Assembly (NCBI GenBank): GCA_030533135.1
Contig: JAUNJR010000006.1
Span: 1 to 35,388 of the forward strand
Source of the DNA: Coriobacteriales bacterium
Lineage (GTDB): Bacteria; Actinomycetota; Coriobacteriia; Coriobacteriales; Atopobiaceae
Direction: 5' to 3'
Length of the DNA: 35,388 nucleotides
Below, one piece after another: positions 9,717 to 27,295 of this stretch (position 1 is its first letter; every line of letters starts with the position of its first letter). The notes under the pieces are model-generated. The model was given only the letters and a program-made list of their open reading frames with translations. It had not been told where the DNA came from and did not search any database. The position numbers and the translations under genes are program-made.

Positions 9717-10235
9717 GTGACTGACGAAGAGAAGTTGTTGCAGACGCTTGAAAAGCGCGGGTTTGTGCGAGGGGGCCTCTCGAAGTGGGGACAGCCTGTG
9801 TCACGGCCCGTAGCTGTGGGGCATGAGCCGCAGATTCTTAAAGAGGCGAGTGCGCTTCAGCGGCGGTTTGTGGCGTGCGCACACGGGACACCCTCGCCTG
9901 GCGCCGACTTGTGCGCAAGTTGGGTCGAGCAGGCGTTCTCTCGCCTTGGCCTTGGCGTTGTGCTGGGGGATGCGAAATCCCTCTATGACGGGTATTGCCA
10001 CTACGAGGACACGCGTGACCTGAAGGTGGGCATGATTATCGCCGTGCCGCAACACCCCTTTTCTGCGCAGGGGCTTATCCATGGACATGTCTGCCTCTAT
10101 ATTGGCAACGAAATCGTGATGGACGCTGTCGGCCAGGAGGTGCGGAGAATGCCGCTCGCTCTGTGGCTCAGCGCTTACGGTTTGATGGCACAGCCTCGCT
10201 GGGGGTGGCTCGGCAGTATGGGGCTCAGTAAATAA
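9717..10235 (+). CDS. Small NlpC/P60- or CHAP-like cysteine hydrolase, apparently cytoplasmic
   Basis: The 172-residue product has the shape of a papain-like amidase: DLCASWVEQAF with candidate nucleophile C66 at a helix start, and GHVCLYIGNEIVMDA with candidate histidine H124. The central LKVGMIIAVP also fits the fold, where a strand precedes the histidine. No signal peptide, transmembrane helix or wall-binding domain is present, unlike the secreted peptidoglycan hydrolases of these families, so it may act inside the cell or on another substrate. The GTG is preferred because AGGGG lies six bases upstream; an ATG at 9711 is too close to that site. It is flanked by terminator and promoter regions, hence probably monocistronic. 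Function is not assigned. Confidence 0.6.
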   Translation: MTDEEKLLQTLEKRGFVRGGLSKWGQPVSRPVAVGHEPQILKEASALQRRFVACAHGTPSPGADLCASWVEQAFSRLGLGVVLGDAKSLYDGYCHYEDTRDLKVGMIIAVPQHPFSAQGLIHGHVCLYIGNEIVMDAVGQEVRRMPLALWLSAYGLMAQPRWGWLGSMGLSK

Positions 10236-21905: not shown

Positions 21906-23402
21906 ATGGCTGACAGGGTTAGAAGGAAGATCAGGGTCCTCTTTGCGGCGTCCGAGGCCGTGCCGTTCGTCAAGACCGGCGGTCTGGCTGACGTTGCCGG
22001 CTCCCTTCCGCGCGCACTCAAGCATGCCGGCGCAAAGGTCGCTGTCATCATGCCCAAGTACGGCAACATCCCTTGGGAGTATCAGGAGAAGATGGAGCAC
22101 ATCTCCGACTTCTATGTCCCCTTGGCCTGGCGCAATGTGTACTGCGGCATCGAGAAGCTGACCTTCAACGGCGTCGACTTCTACTTCGTGGACAACGAGG
22201 CATACTTTAAGCGTGACGGCAGCATCTATGGCTACTTTGACGATGGCGAGCGCTACGCGTTCTTCAGCAAGGCCATCTGCGAGGCCATCAGCCGCGTGCC
22301 CGAGCTTGCATGTGACGTCGTCCACTGCAACGACTGGCAGACCGCGTTGGTGCCCGTGTTCCTGCGCGAGTTCTATCGCGAGATTCCCGTGTGCCAGAAC
22401 GTGAAGGTCATGTTCACGGTTCATAACGTGAAGTTCCAGGGTCAGTACTCCGACAAGGTGCTGTCCGACGTGCTCGGCCTCGAGAACATCCCGGCTGCCG
22501 TCGACCAGCTGTACTGCGACCGCGACTCCATCAACTACATGAAGGGCGCGCTCTGCTACTCCGACATCATCACGACGGTCAGCCCGACCTATGCTGGCGA
22601 GTTGCAGATGCCGTTCTACGGCGAGGGCATGGACCCGATCTTCCGTCGTCGTGCCGACGCGCTGGTGGGCATCCTCAATGGTATTGACACCATCGACTGG
22701 AATCCCAAGACGGACAAGTTCATTGCCGCTAACTACGACGTTAAGGATCTGGCCGACAAGGCCGAGAACAAGCGCCTCCTGCAGGAGGAGTTTGGCCTCG
22801 CACAGGATCCTGACCGTCCGCTCGTGGTCATGATTGGCCGCCTGACCAACCAGAAGGGCCTGGGCCTGGTGCGCTATGCTATGGGCCAGCTCATGGAGCG
22901 TGGCGTTCAGGTTGCCATTCTGGGCACTGGTGACGCTGATCAGGAAGAGGCCTTCCGTTACTTCGACTCGGTTTACGGCGACAAGATGGCTGCACGCATC
23001 GCGTTTGACAACGCGCTGTCTCACCGCATGTATGCCGGTGGCGACCTGCTGCTTATGCCGTCCGAGTTCGAGCCCTGCGGCCTTTCCCAGATGATCGCCA
23101 TGCGTTATGGCACCCTGCCTGTCGTACGCGAGACTGGCGGCCTGAAGGACTCCGTCGCCCCGTACAACCAGTACACGGGTGAGGGCACGGGCTTCAGCTT
23201 TGCCAACATGAACGCTGACGAGATGGCTAACTGCCTGCTCAACGCCTGCGAGATCTTCTGGACGGACAAGGAAACTTGGGCCAAGCTGCAGAAGCAGGCC
23301 ATGGCGGCGGACTTCTCTTGGAAGCGTGCTGCGAACGATTACCTGGATTGCTATCACAGGCTGCATCCGGAAATCATCCGCTACAACAAGCGTCGCGATT
23401 AG
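21906..23402 (+). CDS. glgA: Glycogen synthase (GT5, ADP-glucose dependent)
   Basis: GlgA transfers glucose from ADP-glucose to growing alpha-1,4-glucan chains. The 498 residues show a GT-B fold enzyme: KTGGLADVAGSLPRAL (23-38) binding ADP-glucose, HCNDWQTALVPVFLRE, FTVHNVKFQGQY, the linker MIGRLTNQKG starting the second Rossmann domain, and PSEFEPCGLSQMIAMRYGTLPVVRETGGLKD with the catalytic-loop glutamate. It closes the glgP-glgC-glgD-glgA operon and is followed by a strong terminator. Confidence 0.97.
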   Translation: MADRVRRKIRVLFAASEAVPFVKTGGLADVAGSLPRALKHAGAKVAVIMPKYGNIPWEYQEKMEHISDFYVPLAWRNVYCGIEKLTFNGVDFYFVDNEAYFKRDGSIYGYFDDGERYAFFSKAICEAISRVPELACDVVHCNDWQTALVPVFLREFYREIPVCQNVKVMFTVHNVKFQGQYSDKVLSDVLGLENIPAAVDQLYCDRDSINYMKGALCYSDIITTVSPTYAGELQMPFYGEGMDPIFRRRADALVGILNGIDTIDWNPKTDKFIAANYDVKDLADKAENKRLLQEEFGLAQDPDRPLVVMIGRLTNQKGLGLVRYAMGQLMERGVQVAILGTGDADQEEAFRYFDSVYGDKMAARIAFDNALSHRMYAGGDLLLMPSEFEPCGLSQMIAMRYGTLPVVRETGGLKDSVAPYNQYTGEGTGFSFANMNADEMANCLLNACEIFWTDKETWAKLQKQAMAADFSWKRAANDYLDCYHRLHPEIIRYNKRRD

Positions 23403-23426
23403 GTACTAGCCACAAAGTAAGGCTGA

Positions 23427-23456
23427 GGGGCCGTCCCACGGGACGGCCCCTTTCTT
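23427..23456 (+). terminator. Terminator of the glycogen operon
   Basis: GGGGCCGTCC pairs with GGACGGCCCC over a CACG loop and is followed by TTTCTT. Confidence 0.9.
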
Positions 23457-23615
23457 GTTATGGCTTCAAATGTACGCAATGTGTCGTGGCTGGGTTATAG
23501 ATCAAAATGCGTGTCGAGCTAAGCTTGGTAACGTTCACGCGATATCGACCCGTGGAGCCTATCTCCCGCAAACGTCGTCACCCCGTGGTCAATGTGGCAG
23601 GTTCCTGTTGGTTGG

Positions 23616-23643
23616 CTACCAAAAAACGCGATGGTATGTACAG
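23616..23643 (+). repeat. 28-bp repeat, copy A
   Basis: The core is ACCAAAAAACGCGATGGT followed by ATGTACAG. It differs from copy B at four positions. Its centre lies 51 bp from that of copy B. Confidence 0.85.
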
Positions 23644-23666
23644 AAGAGGGCAAAAACGCTCCCTCT

Positions 23667-23694
23667 TGACCAAAAAACGCGATGGTGTGAACAG
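23667..23694 (+). repeat. 28-bp repeat, copy B
   Basis: TGACCAAAAAACGCGATGGT followed by GTGAACAG. It has the same orientation as copy A. A truncated CAAAAACGCT lies between A and B. Confidence 0.85.
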
Positions 23695-23718
23695 TTTTCG
23701 CCAGTTTTTGGGTGAATC

Positions 23719-23746
23719 GCGTTCATAGAATCGTGTTTTTTGGTCA
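23719..23746 (-). repeat. 28-bp repeat, copy C (inverted)
   Basis: On the minus strand it reads TGACCAAAAAACACGATTCT followed by ATGAAC. Its centre is 52 bp from copy B, with orientation reversed. Confidence 0.85.
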
Positions 23747-23769
23747 AGACGGGCCCCAGAAGGCCCCTT

Positions 23770-23797
23770 CCGTTCACAACATCGCGTATTTTGGTCA
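23770..23797 (-). repeat. 28-bp repeat, copy D (inverted)
   Basis: On the minus strand it reads TGACCAAAATACGCGATGTT followed by GTGAAC. Its centre is 51 bp from copy C, mirroring the A-B spacing. Confidence 0.85.
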
Positions 23798-23935
23798 GCC
23801 GTCAGATGTGGCTGTGTGCTTCTGCTCAGAAACGCCTGTCGCCCTCACCCTTTGACTGGAAAACCGCGTCCTGGAAGCCCCAAGCCCGCAGGGGTTTGGG
23901 GTAACACCACACGATATGAACAGTCGACGCGCGCA

Positions 23936-23952
23936 CAGTACGCGACGTACTG
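23936..23952. promoter_or_regulatory. Inverted repeat CAGTAC-N5-GTACTG
   Basis: A perfect 6-bp inverted repeat with a 5-base spacer lies directly upstream of a TATCAT hexamer (23954-23959). A further TACTG follows at 23971. It is a plausible repressor or activator site for the downstream gene. Confidence 0.35.
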
Positions 23953-23959
23953 CTATCAT

Positions 23960-23972
23960 TCATAGAATCGTA
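23960..23972 (-). repeat. Half copy of the 28-bp repeat at the GH13-GH77 promoter
   Basis: TTCATAGAATCGT is identical over 13 bases to part of copy C (23722-23734). It includes a TAGAAT hexamer and lies about 40 bases before the start codon of the next gene. Confidence 0.6.
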
Positions 23973-24007: not shown

Positions 24008-27000
24008 TTGGGCTTAACGAATCGAGACATCGTGAGAGCTAAGCACGTCACCTCGTCCCTTGAGTATCGTGACCCGTTTGGTGCGGCCCGCGTGGGCGTT
24101 ACCGTAACCCTGCGGATTGACGTGTGGGACGAACCCGAGGCAACCGCAAAGCTGCGCCTGTGGACTGATGAGGACGGCGAGGAGCTCATCGAGATGGAGA
24201 GCGCCCCGCTCGGTGACGCGATTCGCTTCTCAGCCTCTTTCACGCCTGAGATTGCGCAGATTGTTTGGTACAGCTTTGAGATTACCGCGGCAAACGGCGA
24301 CGTGTGGCGCTATGGCGCCCACCCCGAGCGCTCTACGGGCGAGGGGGCCTTTGCGTACGGCGAGCCGCCTTCGTTCCAGATCACCTGCTACGAGCTCCAG
24401 CGCTCGGTGTTTCCTGACTGGTACAAGAACGGCATCGTGTACCAGATCTTCCCGGACCGCTTCGCCCGTGGCAAGGACTGGGAGGAGCGCGCCGCGGCAG
24501 CTCTGAAGCTGCATCCGAATGGCCCCAAGCGCAAGCTGGTTGACGACTGGTACAAGACCCCCAGCTACAAGAAGGCTGAGGACGGCAGCATCGCCGAGTG
24601 GGAGTTCTACGGCGGCACGCTTGAGGGCATTCGCGAGCATCTTGACTACCTGCAGGGCTTGGGCGTCACGGTCCTCTATCTGAACCCCATCTTCGAGGCG
24701 CAGTCCAACCATCGCTACGACACCGGCAACTACATGCAGATTGATCCGATGCTGGGCGACGAGGAGAGCTTCACGCGTCTCTGCGAGGAAGCGCGCGACC
24801 GTGGCATCTCCATCATTCTTGATGGCGTGTTCAACCACACCGGCGCAGACTCGATGTATTTCAACCGCTTGGGCAACTATGACACCGTCGGCGCATACCA
24901 GAGCCCCGATTCGCCGTATCGCGACTGGTTCAAGCTCTGCGACGACGGCACCTACGAGTGCTGGTGGGGCGTCGACGCGCTTCCTGACCTGAATGAGGAC
25001 AATCCCGACTACCGCAAGCTGATCTGCGGCGAGGATGGCGTGGTGCGCAAGTGGCTGCGCGCTGGTGCGCGCGGTTGGCGCCTGGACGTTGCCGACGAGC
25101 TGCCCGATGACTTCATCGCCGAGATCAAGGCCGCTGAACTGGCCGAGAAGCCCCACGCGCTGCTCATAGGCGAGGTCTGGGAGGACGCCACCACCAAGGT
25201 TGCCTATGGCCAGCTGCGTAAGTACTTCCATGGCCACGAGCTGGACGGCGTCATGAACTATCCGCTGCGCCACGCCGTGCTTGACTTCCTCACCGACAAG
25301 ATTACGGCCGAGGACCTGGCCAATGCCACCGAGCAGCTCTGCGAGAACTACCCGGGAGAGGCCTTCCGCTCTACGCTCAACCTGCTGGGTAGCCATGACC
25401 GCATCCGCCTGATGAACGTGCTGGGCAACTCTCCGCATCGCAGCACGCTGGGCGAGGAGCAGAAGGCCAGCTTTAGGCTGGATAAGGACCACCACAGCCT
25501 CGGTGTGAGCCGTCTGTGGGTCGCCGCCCTTATGCAGATGACGCTCCCCGGCGTTCCCTGCATCTACTACGGTGACGAAGCGGGCATGGAGGGTTACACC
25601 GACCCATACAACCGTGGGCCGTATCCGTGGGGCAAGGAAGACACCAACTGCACCACCATCTATCGCAACGCCATTGCTATTCGTAAGGCTCTGCCGGTGT
25701 TTACACATGGCGTATTCCGTCCGTTCGCGCTGAACGATGACGTGTTTGGCTACTGGCGCCACGACGGCAAGACCTACGCTTGCGTGCTCATCAACCGCAG
25801 CCTCTCAAAGTCTCATACGGTGCGCGTTCCCATGCGTGACGAGGCCGTCTCGGACATCATCTCCGGCCGTCCCGTGAAGGTGGTGGAGGAGAACGGCGAG
25901 AAGAAGGCCGAGATCTTCATGTGGCCGCTCGGCACGTCGGTGCTGTACTTCCACAAGCAGGAGCGCCTGCAGGCTCCCATCGAGCGCGGCATGGGCGTGC
26001 TCGCCCATATCACGAGCGTGCCCAACGACGGCAAGCCAGGCGAGCTGTGCGATCCGTCAAAGCGCTTTGTCGACTGGCTGGCGGAGGCTGGCGTCAAGTA
26101 TTGGCAGATCTTGCCGGTCAATCCCTGCGACCGGTGGGGTTCCCCGTATGCGGGCCTCTCCGCCTTCGCAGGCAACCCCATGCTTGTGGACTGGCCTAAG
26201 GACCGCGAGGGCTACCTCGAGAATCTCGCCAAGGAACCTGAGTACAAGACGTTCTGCGAGAAGCATGACGAGTGGCTGACGCCGTACGCCACGTTCCGCG
26301 CCATCAAGGACCTGCTGGGCGAGGATGCATGGCAGGCTTGGCCCGAGCACTACTGGACGTTCAGCCCCAGTCTCGCGCGCGACAAGAAGCTCGCTGACGG
26401 CGTGGAGCGCAACAAGCGCATCCAGTATGCCTTCCAGGTTCAGTGGAACAGCCTGCGTGCCTATGCAAATCGCCGCGGCATCAAGATCATCGGCGACATG
26501 CCCATGTATGTGTCGAGCGACTCTGCCGACGTGTGGGCGCATCGCGACATCTTCGCGCTCGACAAGGATGGCGCCACCGTTTCTCAGGCCGGCGCTCCGC
26601 CTGATCCGCTGGGCCCCGAGGGCCAGCTGTGGGGTAACCCCACCTTCCGTTGGGACGTGCTCAAGGACCGTGGATACGATTGGTGGATGGCTCGCTTTGA
26701 GCGCATGTTCGAGCTGTACGACTACGTGCGCCTGGACCACTTCCTGGGCTTCTCGTCGTACTACTCCATCCCGCAGGGCAAGACGGCACTTGAGGGCTCC
26801 TGGCGCTTTGGCCCGGGCCTGGACCTGTTCCAGGTGGCGCATGACCGCTTCGGCCAGCTACCCATCATTGCCGAGGACCTCGGCACGGTGACCCCGGCTA
26901 TCCGTGCGCTGGTTGCCGCGACGGGTGCTCCGGGCATGAGCGTCGTCCAGTTTGTGGACGAGGATGTGCGCAACGGCTTCCATCCCGCGCCAGGCGCATG

Positions 27001-27295
27001 CGCCTTTACCGGCACCCATGACACGCAGACGGTCCTGGGTTGGGTCAAGAAGCACTTTGGGCTGCACGGTGCCCAGGCCATGGAGCTGGCAAAGAGGCTG
27101 AACGACTTCGTGCTTGGCTCCGAGAGTGATCTGGCAGTGCTGCCGCTGCAGGATGTACTGCTGCTTGGCGATGACTCTCGCATGAACGTGCCGGGCGTGG
27201 CTGAGGGCAACTGGAGCTGGAAGGCCGAGCGCGAGGACCTGAACGCTTCAAGCGAGTACCTGGCCCAGCTGGTCAAGAAGAGCAAGCGCGGCTAG
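24008..27295 (+). CDS. GH13 alpha-glucosidase/neopullulanase-type enzyme fused to GH77 4-alpha-glucanotransferase (MalQ)
   Basis: This 1095-residue cytoplasmic fusion is predicted to process maltodextrins. Residues 10-120 form a CBM34-like beta domain. The GH13 barrel (about 140-560) has nucleophile D360 (RGWRLDVADELP), acid E389 (LIGEVWED) and D464 (GSHDRIR), with a short beta domain to about 648. The GH77 module starts near 655 (GMGVLAHITSVPN) and has D910 (VRLDHFLGF), E956 (IIAEDLGTV) and D1005 (GTHDTQT). All six catalytic residues are present, so both halves should be active: one hydrolyses alpha-glucosidic bonds, the other transfers glucan chains. The TTG start is chosen because GAGAAGG lies six bases upstream. 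It has its own promoter region and terminator. Confidence 0.92.
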   Translation: MGLTNRDIVRAKHVTSSLEYRDPFGAARVGVTVTLRIDVWDEPEATAKLRLWTDEDGEELIEMESAPLGDAIRFSASFTPEIAQIVWYSFEITAANGDVWRYGAHPERSTGEGAFAYGEPPSFQITCYELQRSVFPDWYKNGIVYQIFPDRFARGKDWEERAAAALKLHPNGPKRKLVDDWYKTPSYKKAEDGSIAEWEFYGGTLEGIREHLDYLQGLGVTVLYLNPIFEAQSNHRYDTGNYMQIDPMLGDEESFTRLCEEARDRGISIILDGVFNHTGADSMYFNRLGNYDTVGAYQSPDSPYRDWFKLCDDGTYECWWGVDALPDLNEDNPDYRKLICGEDGVVRKWLRAGARGWRLDVADELPDDFIAEIKAAELAEKPHALLIGEVWEDATTKVAYGQLRKYFHGHELDGVMNYPLRHAVLDFLTDKITAEDLANATEQLCENYPGEAFRSTLNLLGSHDRIRLMNVLGNSPHRSTLGEEQKASFRLDKDHHSLGVSRLWVAALMQMTLPGVPCIYYGDEAGMEGYTDPYNRGPYPWGKEDTNCTTIYRNAIAIRKALPVFTHGVFRPFALNDDVFGYWRHDGKTYACVLINRSLSKSHTVRVPMRDEAVSDIISGRPVKVVEENGEKKAEIFMWPLGTSVLYFHKQERLQAPIERGMGVLAHITSVPNDGKPGELCDPSKRFVDWLAEAGVKYWQILPVNPCDRWGSPYAGLSAFAGNPMLVDWPKDREGYLENLAKEPEYKTFCEKHDEWLTPYATFRAIKDLLGEDAWQAWPEHYWTFSPSLARDKKLADGVERNKRIQYAFQVQWNSLRAYANRRGIKIIGDMPMYVSSDSADVWAHRDIFALDKDGATVSQAGAPPDPLGPEGQLWGNPTFRWDVLKDRGYDWWMARFERMFELYDYVRLDHFLGFSSYYSIPQGKTALEGSWRFGPGLDLFQVAHDRFGQLPIIAEDLGTVTPAIRALVAATGAPGMSVVQFVDEDVRNGFHPAPGACAFTGTHDTQTVLGWVKKHFGLHGAQAMELAKRLNDFVLGSESDLAVLPLQDVLLLGDDSRMNVPGVAEGNWSWKAEREDLNASSEYLAQLVKKSKRG

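Follow-up and report, generated by a model that had tools for sequence, protein, structure and literature searches.

A dispersed intergenic element of one Coriobacteriales genus with a candidate four-site protein-binding core

The usual fate of a dispersed bacterial repeat is to decay at its new site or to retain only its mobile tips. ERIC/IRU elements are intergenic, palindromic, dispersed, and restricted to particular lineages, and the multi-site recognition arrays of transposases or recombinases such as those of Mu, Tn7, and lambda consist of several non-palindromic sites of 20-26 bp, which are placed at fixed distances and inverted between halves. Our literature searches on such repeats in the bacterial group studied here found none. 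We analyzed a stretch of 35,388 nucleotides from a Coriobacteriales bacterium (the window), which contains a tetrad of 26-bp repeats (R) between glgA and a gene encoding a GH13-GH77 fusion protein.

The tetrad shares features with each of these systems. Like ERIC/IRU elements it is intergenic, palindromic, dispersed, and confined to a lineage, but it differs from them in length, sequence, and four-fold internal repeats, and the sites and distances are conserved rather than the fold. Like the arrays of Mu, Tn7, and lambda it has non-palindromic sites at fixed distances in inverted halves; however, it has no attached recombinase gene and no conserved terminal bases, and only 28 bp separate the halves. 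The resemblance to REPINs and BIMEs (PMC3116915) lies in a short intergenic inverted-repeat unit with conserved repeats, variable spacers, many dispersed copies, and a hairpin. In contrast to these, the tetrad has four copies in the orientation ++-- at a fixed spacing of 51/28/51 bp, with no singlets or doublets in the genome of the window, and inspection of the consensus showed that the 26-bp R is not itself a hairpin and has neither a short imperfect palindrome nor GTAG. There was no RAYT (Y1 transposase) among the neighbor proteins scanned.

The array in the window and its insertion site

The window tetrad comprises four R copies in the orientation ++-- and spans 182 bp (23616-23797), with repeats and spacers alternating in the layout 26-25-26-28-26-25-26, between glgA (21906-23402) and the start of the GH13-GH77 gene at about 24008. 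On the forward strand, the outer left repeat R1 (23616-23641; CTACCAAAAAACGCGATGGTATGTAC) matches 20 of the 21 conserved R positions, and the inner left repeat R2 (23667-23692; TGACCAAAAAACGCGATGGTGTGAAC) is a perfect core match with 21 of 21; between them lies the 25-bp spacer S1 (23642-23666), which is fast-evolving and partly palindromic (GAGGG..CCCTC). The 28-bp central spacer (23693-23720) surrounds the dyad at 23706.5 and is followed by the two repeats inverted onto the reverse strand, the inner right R3 (23721-23746, 19 of 21) and the outer right R4 (23772-23797, 20 of 21), separated by the fast-evolving 25-bp spacer S3 (23747-23771). The next-best match to R anywhere in the 35-kb window scored 14 of 21. 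With up to three mismatches allowed, the 16-base R core occurs 4 times in the window compared with 0.25 times expected, and none of 100 shuffles reached 4.

A first-pass annotation of the window had described four repeats, two pointing right and then two pointing left, with mirror symmetry about 23706. Both points are borne out by the R scores of 19-21 of 21 and the symmetry center at 23706.5. The distances of 51, 52, and 51 bp given there between repeat centers are correct for the 28-bp unit used, but the value of 52 follows from the choice of frame for that unit; what is conserved is a distance of 51 bp from one direct copy to the next and a central gap of 28 bp. Additional degenerate or partial copies had been placed at 23853, 23911, and 23960, where the best scores are 11-12 of 21. 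This is the background level, reached or equaled at hundreds of positions in the window, and we rejected extra R copies downstream for this reason. The match near 23960 overlaps the promoter element TGCTATCAT, which is also present in relatives without the tetrad. We also rejected a CRISPR array, because the last two repeats are inverted and the spacers have a weak common consensus.

In five of five relatives (G005, G001, G024, G007, and G009), no tetrad separates glgA from the GH13-GH77 gene that follows it, and hence the tetrad at the window locus is an insertion. The extra DNA falls between an intrinsic terminator after glgA (23425-23452, forward strand), which is kept in four of the five relatives, and the probable extended -10 element of the GH13-GH77 gene (TGCTATCAT, 23951-23959, forward strand), which G005, G007, and G009 share and G001 and G024 nearly match. 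At a second locus, C148, the neighbor genes are 751 bp apart in the genome of the window (G000) compared with about 110-216 bp in relatives, among them the tetrad-bearing G010, and IS1249-type tips mark both ends of the insert. Orthologous sites in relatives were empty at these two loci, the two examined. We also observed that the GH13-GH77 fusion protein (window 24008-27295) is 98% identical to that of G005 over the 329 residues compared, with 91% identity for gltX. Very close kinship with G005 was rejected as the cause since gltX reaches only 91%, leaving this locus alone unusually similar, which suggests possible recombination or transfer there.

Copies in the genome and across the order

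The G000 assembly is a fragmented draft of 2.15 Mb in 251 contigs and is 87% complete. It contains 14 full tetrads, every one of them with the structure R-25-R-28-R'-25-R' (182 bp), and a nucleotide search found no partial copies of the tetrad in G000. The R consensus of this genome, TGACCAWAAAACGCGATGNTRTGAAC, contains the strongly conserved blocks CCA, AAAA, CGCGAT, and T.TGAAC. Pairwise identity between copies is 0.84-0.89 in R versus 0.46-0.54 in the spacers, and the outermost bases of R1 and R4 vary freely. The closest pair of tetrads, C8 and C139, shows about 6 base differences and no indel within the tetrad, and the length of one arm differs by 83 bp. All 14 tetrads are intergenic, and the adjoining genes have unrelated functions and no common orientation. 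These genes encode, among others, a surface LRR protein, a choline-binding protein, a PASTA protein, gltX, a NUDIX protein, an SNF2-type helicase similar to defence proteins, phosphosugar enzymes, and a lysylphosphatidylglycerol synthase-like protein. The fallback reading of the first-pass annotation, a family-specific dispersed repeat, thus agrees with 14 copies beside unrelated genes. Scatter at random without conserved spacing or neighbors had been named there as the mark of a neutral repeat, and only half of this picture applies: the neighbors are not conserved and the spacing is perfectly conserved. The original observation and the fallback reading are both correct, the local interpretation is incorrect, and the exact conservation of geometry is an addition that was not expected.

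Among 18 genomes of the genus, the tetrad is present only in G000, G010, and G006. In the sister species G010 we found two full copies and, at a contig end, one half; G006 has one half tetrad. One full copy in G010 (C187) has the exact 51/28/51 spacing despite its different spacers and an R consensus, CCATAAAACGCGTTGATGTGAAC, unlike that of G000; by our own count the other full copy has a spacing of 50/28/51 and is thus 1 bp off. When 397 genomes of the order were searched for the exact geometry, we obtained 14 tetrads from G000 and a single one from G010, and the remaining genomes had none. A profile search across the order agreed, with matches only in G000, G010, and G006 and no tetrad in the 394 other genomes. 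We rejected a phage or plasmid origin because no match was obtained in viral contigs, plasmids, or phages. Outside the order, four contig matches are single sites in unrelated phyla, approximately the number expected by chance for a short pattern.

Transposon ends and conserved sites

Six of the 14 tetrads (C8, C139, C3, C12, C148, and C160, the window copy) are enclosed by the remains of miniature transposons of the IS1249 type (IS256 group). The tip sequence GGGTTATAGGACAAAATGTGTGTCC is matched at 18-25 of 25 positions on these six copies, compared with a background of at most 14 of 25 at the other eight G000 copies and in G010 and G006. Both tips are present on C8 and C148 and clearly one on C139, C12, C160, and C3, the other end of C3 matching at only 15 of 25 positions. 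In the window, a terminal inverted repeat remnant (GGGTTATAGATCAAAATGCGTGTCG, 21 of 25; 23492-23516, forward strand) is the probable left end of the insertion, followed by a decayed left arm (23517-23615) that can be partly aligned with the arms of C8, C139, C3, and C148; the right end is not recognizable. A seventh tip, broken off by the assembly, is located at the very end of contig C238, and in G000 the tip sequence occurs almost only together with tetrads. The length from tip to tip is 397 bp in C8 and 670 bp in C148, and the distances from tip to tetrad are 80, 124, 135, 142, 148, 163, 192, 318, and 346 bp, with a constant 182 bp for the tetrad.

The six tip-bearing insertions are non-coding, and their tips (GGGTTATAGGACAAAAYGTG) are those of intact IS1249-family ISs in the genus. 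These intact 1.3-kb ISs, found in G007, G002, and G008, encode a transposase of the IS1249 family (NF033544, 459 bits), and two of them have 8-bp target duplications (CGGATGCA and CACTTCGT). On six copies the tetrad element therefore resembles an IS1249-type MITE, having terminal inverted repeats in common with autonomous ISs of the genus. It differs in that its conserved part is the internal four-site array and not the tips, and in that eight tetrads have no recognizable tips, no target-site duplication is visible at C8, C148, or C3, and there is no resident transposase, as NF033544 was not found in the assemblies of G000 (87% complete), G010, and G006. We infer that an IS1249 transposase moved the tip-bearing copies; this does not extend to the eight G000 copies and the G010 and G006 copies without such tips. 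A hairpin, GGGTGCTGACCTGCGCCAGCACCC, recurs beside the tips at C148 (L078), C3 (L073), C12 (L074), and the end of C238 and is perhaps another part of a longer miniature transposon. In G022, an identical IS1249-type tip follows roughly 80 bases after the start of contigs C4, C19, C39, C42, and C44 (within the first 100 bases), where the assembly is broken at a multicopy IS.

We compared sites and tips within the six tip-bearing copies. Mismatches amount to 13/504 (2.6%) in the R core and 24/144 (17%) in the 16-base tip core (Fisher P ~1e-8), or 46/225 over all 25 tip positions (P ~1e-14); both cores were chosen after seeing the data, and all 26 R positions still differ from all 25 tip positions with P ~2e-5.

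Explanations for the conserved array

The tetrad folds stably (z = -8.0 as DNA and, for copy C139, z = -16.8 as RNA), with the single strand forming a long hairpin. However, covariation and paired cells across the copies were equal to shuffled controls, and R1/R4 identity is 0.858 within an element versus 0.847 between elements. The lack of base-pair covariation means that the conserved property is not an RNA or cruciform fold, and the stability arises because the R copies are inverted. The earlier suggestion of an RNA with large inverted arms is not supported by this result. Its counterpart, a protein assembling on one face of the DNA, is in keeping with R conservation at the level of sequence between drifting spacers, as far as a protein on DNA is concerned. 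The stable folds and the intergenic position of the copies, several of them directly after terminators, would suit an ERIC-like RNA or terminator element, whose long hairpin in the transcript would stop transcription or be cut by RNase III; we consider this very improbable in view of pairing at shuffle level, of a stability explained by the inverted repeats, and of Rfam searches that gave no credible family and no match near a gathering score. Intrinsic terminators in the spacers were rejected because they are not conserved and because no terminator-like site was predicted within the tetrad of the window. An operator array for the GH13-GH77 or glycogen genes has scarcely any probability left. 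The position between glgA and the GH13-GH77 promoter is what speaks for it, and the first-pass annotation had proposed a role in front of the sugar-storage gene, but the 13 other copies adjoin unrelated genes and relatives keep the gene pair without the array, most of them with the same terminator and promoter element; we rejected it accordingly.

The main rival is a REPIN-like system, in which the 182-bp tetrad itself would replicate and R would be recognized by a transposase, such as a single-strand enzyme of the HUH/Y1 type that acts on the hairpin. R would then be kept since only copies with intact sites multiply, and IS1249-type miniature elements would have captured the tetrad secondarily. 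The inverted symmetric layout with conserved ends and variable middles is that of REPINs (PMC3116915), the single strand folds to a long hairpin, homology ends at the edges of R1 and R4 in the eight copies without IS1249-type tips, and there are no partial tetrads and, by eye, no consistent target duplication. We nevertheless find this system unlikely, as the outermost bases of R1 and R4 are free to vary, unlike typical transposon tips, no transposase was present among the neighbor genes tested, the hairpin is without covariation, and R is without the REP hairpin and GTAG. The tetrad alone as a DDE transposon was rejected, because its outer bases are not conserved. Fixed chromosome-organizing sites, at which a dedicated architectural protein would bridge half-arrays or distant tetrads in the manner of matS or parS, with mobility being incidental, would account for 14 intergenic sites of exact geometry in about 2.15 Mb without common neighbors and for a sequence-specific conservation of R above that of transposon tips. 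This is improbable given that most species of the genus lack the tetrad and that relatives are empty at both loci tested.

We favor, with a probability of about 0.58 based on sequence comparison, the reading that the window tetrad is one member of a dispersed family of small, non-autonomous intergenic elements with a four-site protein array as their core. The element is found in one Coriobacteriales genus and would offer four candidate sites to a sequence-specific DNA-binding protein, each half consisting of two direct sites 51 bp apart and the halves facing each other across the 28-bp dyad spacer. Miniature transposons with IS1249-type ends would have carried at least six copies, probably among them that of the window. 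After insertion the four sites and the distances between them would be kept and the arms and tips would decay. The putative protein presumably binds R, probably as two dimers able to bridge the halves, and would still do so after insertion. Contrary to the usual decay of dispersed repeats, the geometry is exact in 14/14 G000 copies and in one from a second species, even as spacers and tips drift. This points to a putative protein with a well-defined 26-bp site, and the tetrad could be used as bait to find it. If the protein bridges DNA, a mobile element would be distributing architectural or regulatory sites through the genome. A more far-reaching idea is that a dedicated DNA-bridging protein of the lineage uses the tetrads as its sites, and that these, spread by miniature transposons and with an exact geometry outlasting transposon decay, form a chromosome-wide binding network; this appears unlikely.

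Some copies have neighborhoods with features of their own. Two tetrads have tRNA genes within about 300 bp (L070:3547-3621 and L072:4527-4601), and apparent truncated tRNA genes are located at the ends of contigs C8 and C32, near two more tetrads; a preference for tRNA neighborhoods is possible. Defence-like genes (AbiH-like; DpdE/DrmD-like helicase) adjoin tetrads or halves (L082:1-1365 in G006 and L071:6003-8147). On contig C207 of G000, a single gene (364 aa, no family) lies between two tetrads that are 1.4 kb apart (L071:8195-8376 and 9767-9948). These tetrads are almost the same in their left halves, of about 103 bp, and differ in their right halves and flanks, which suggests that half an element has undergone conversion.
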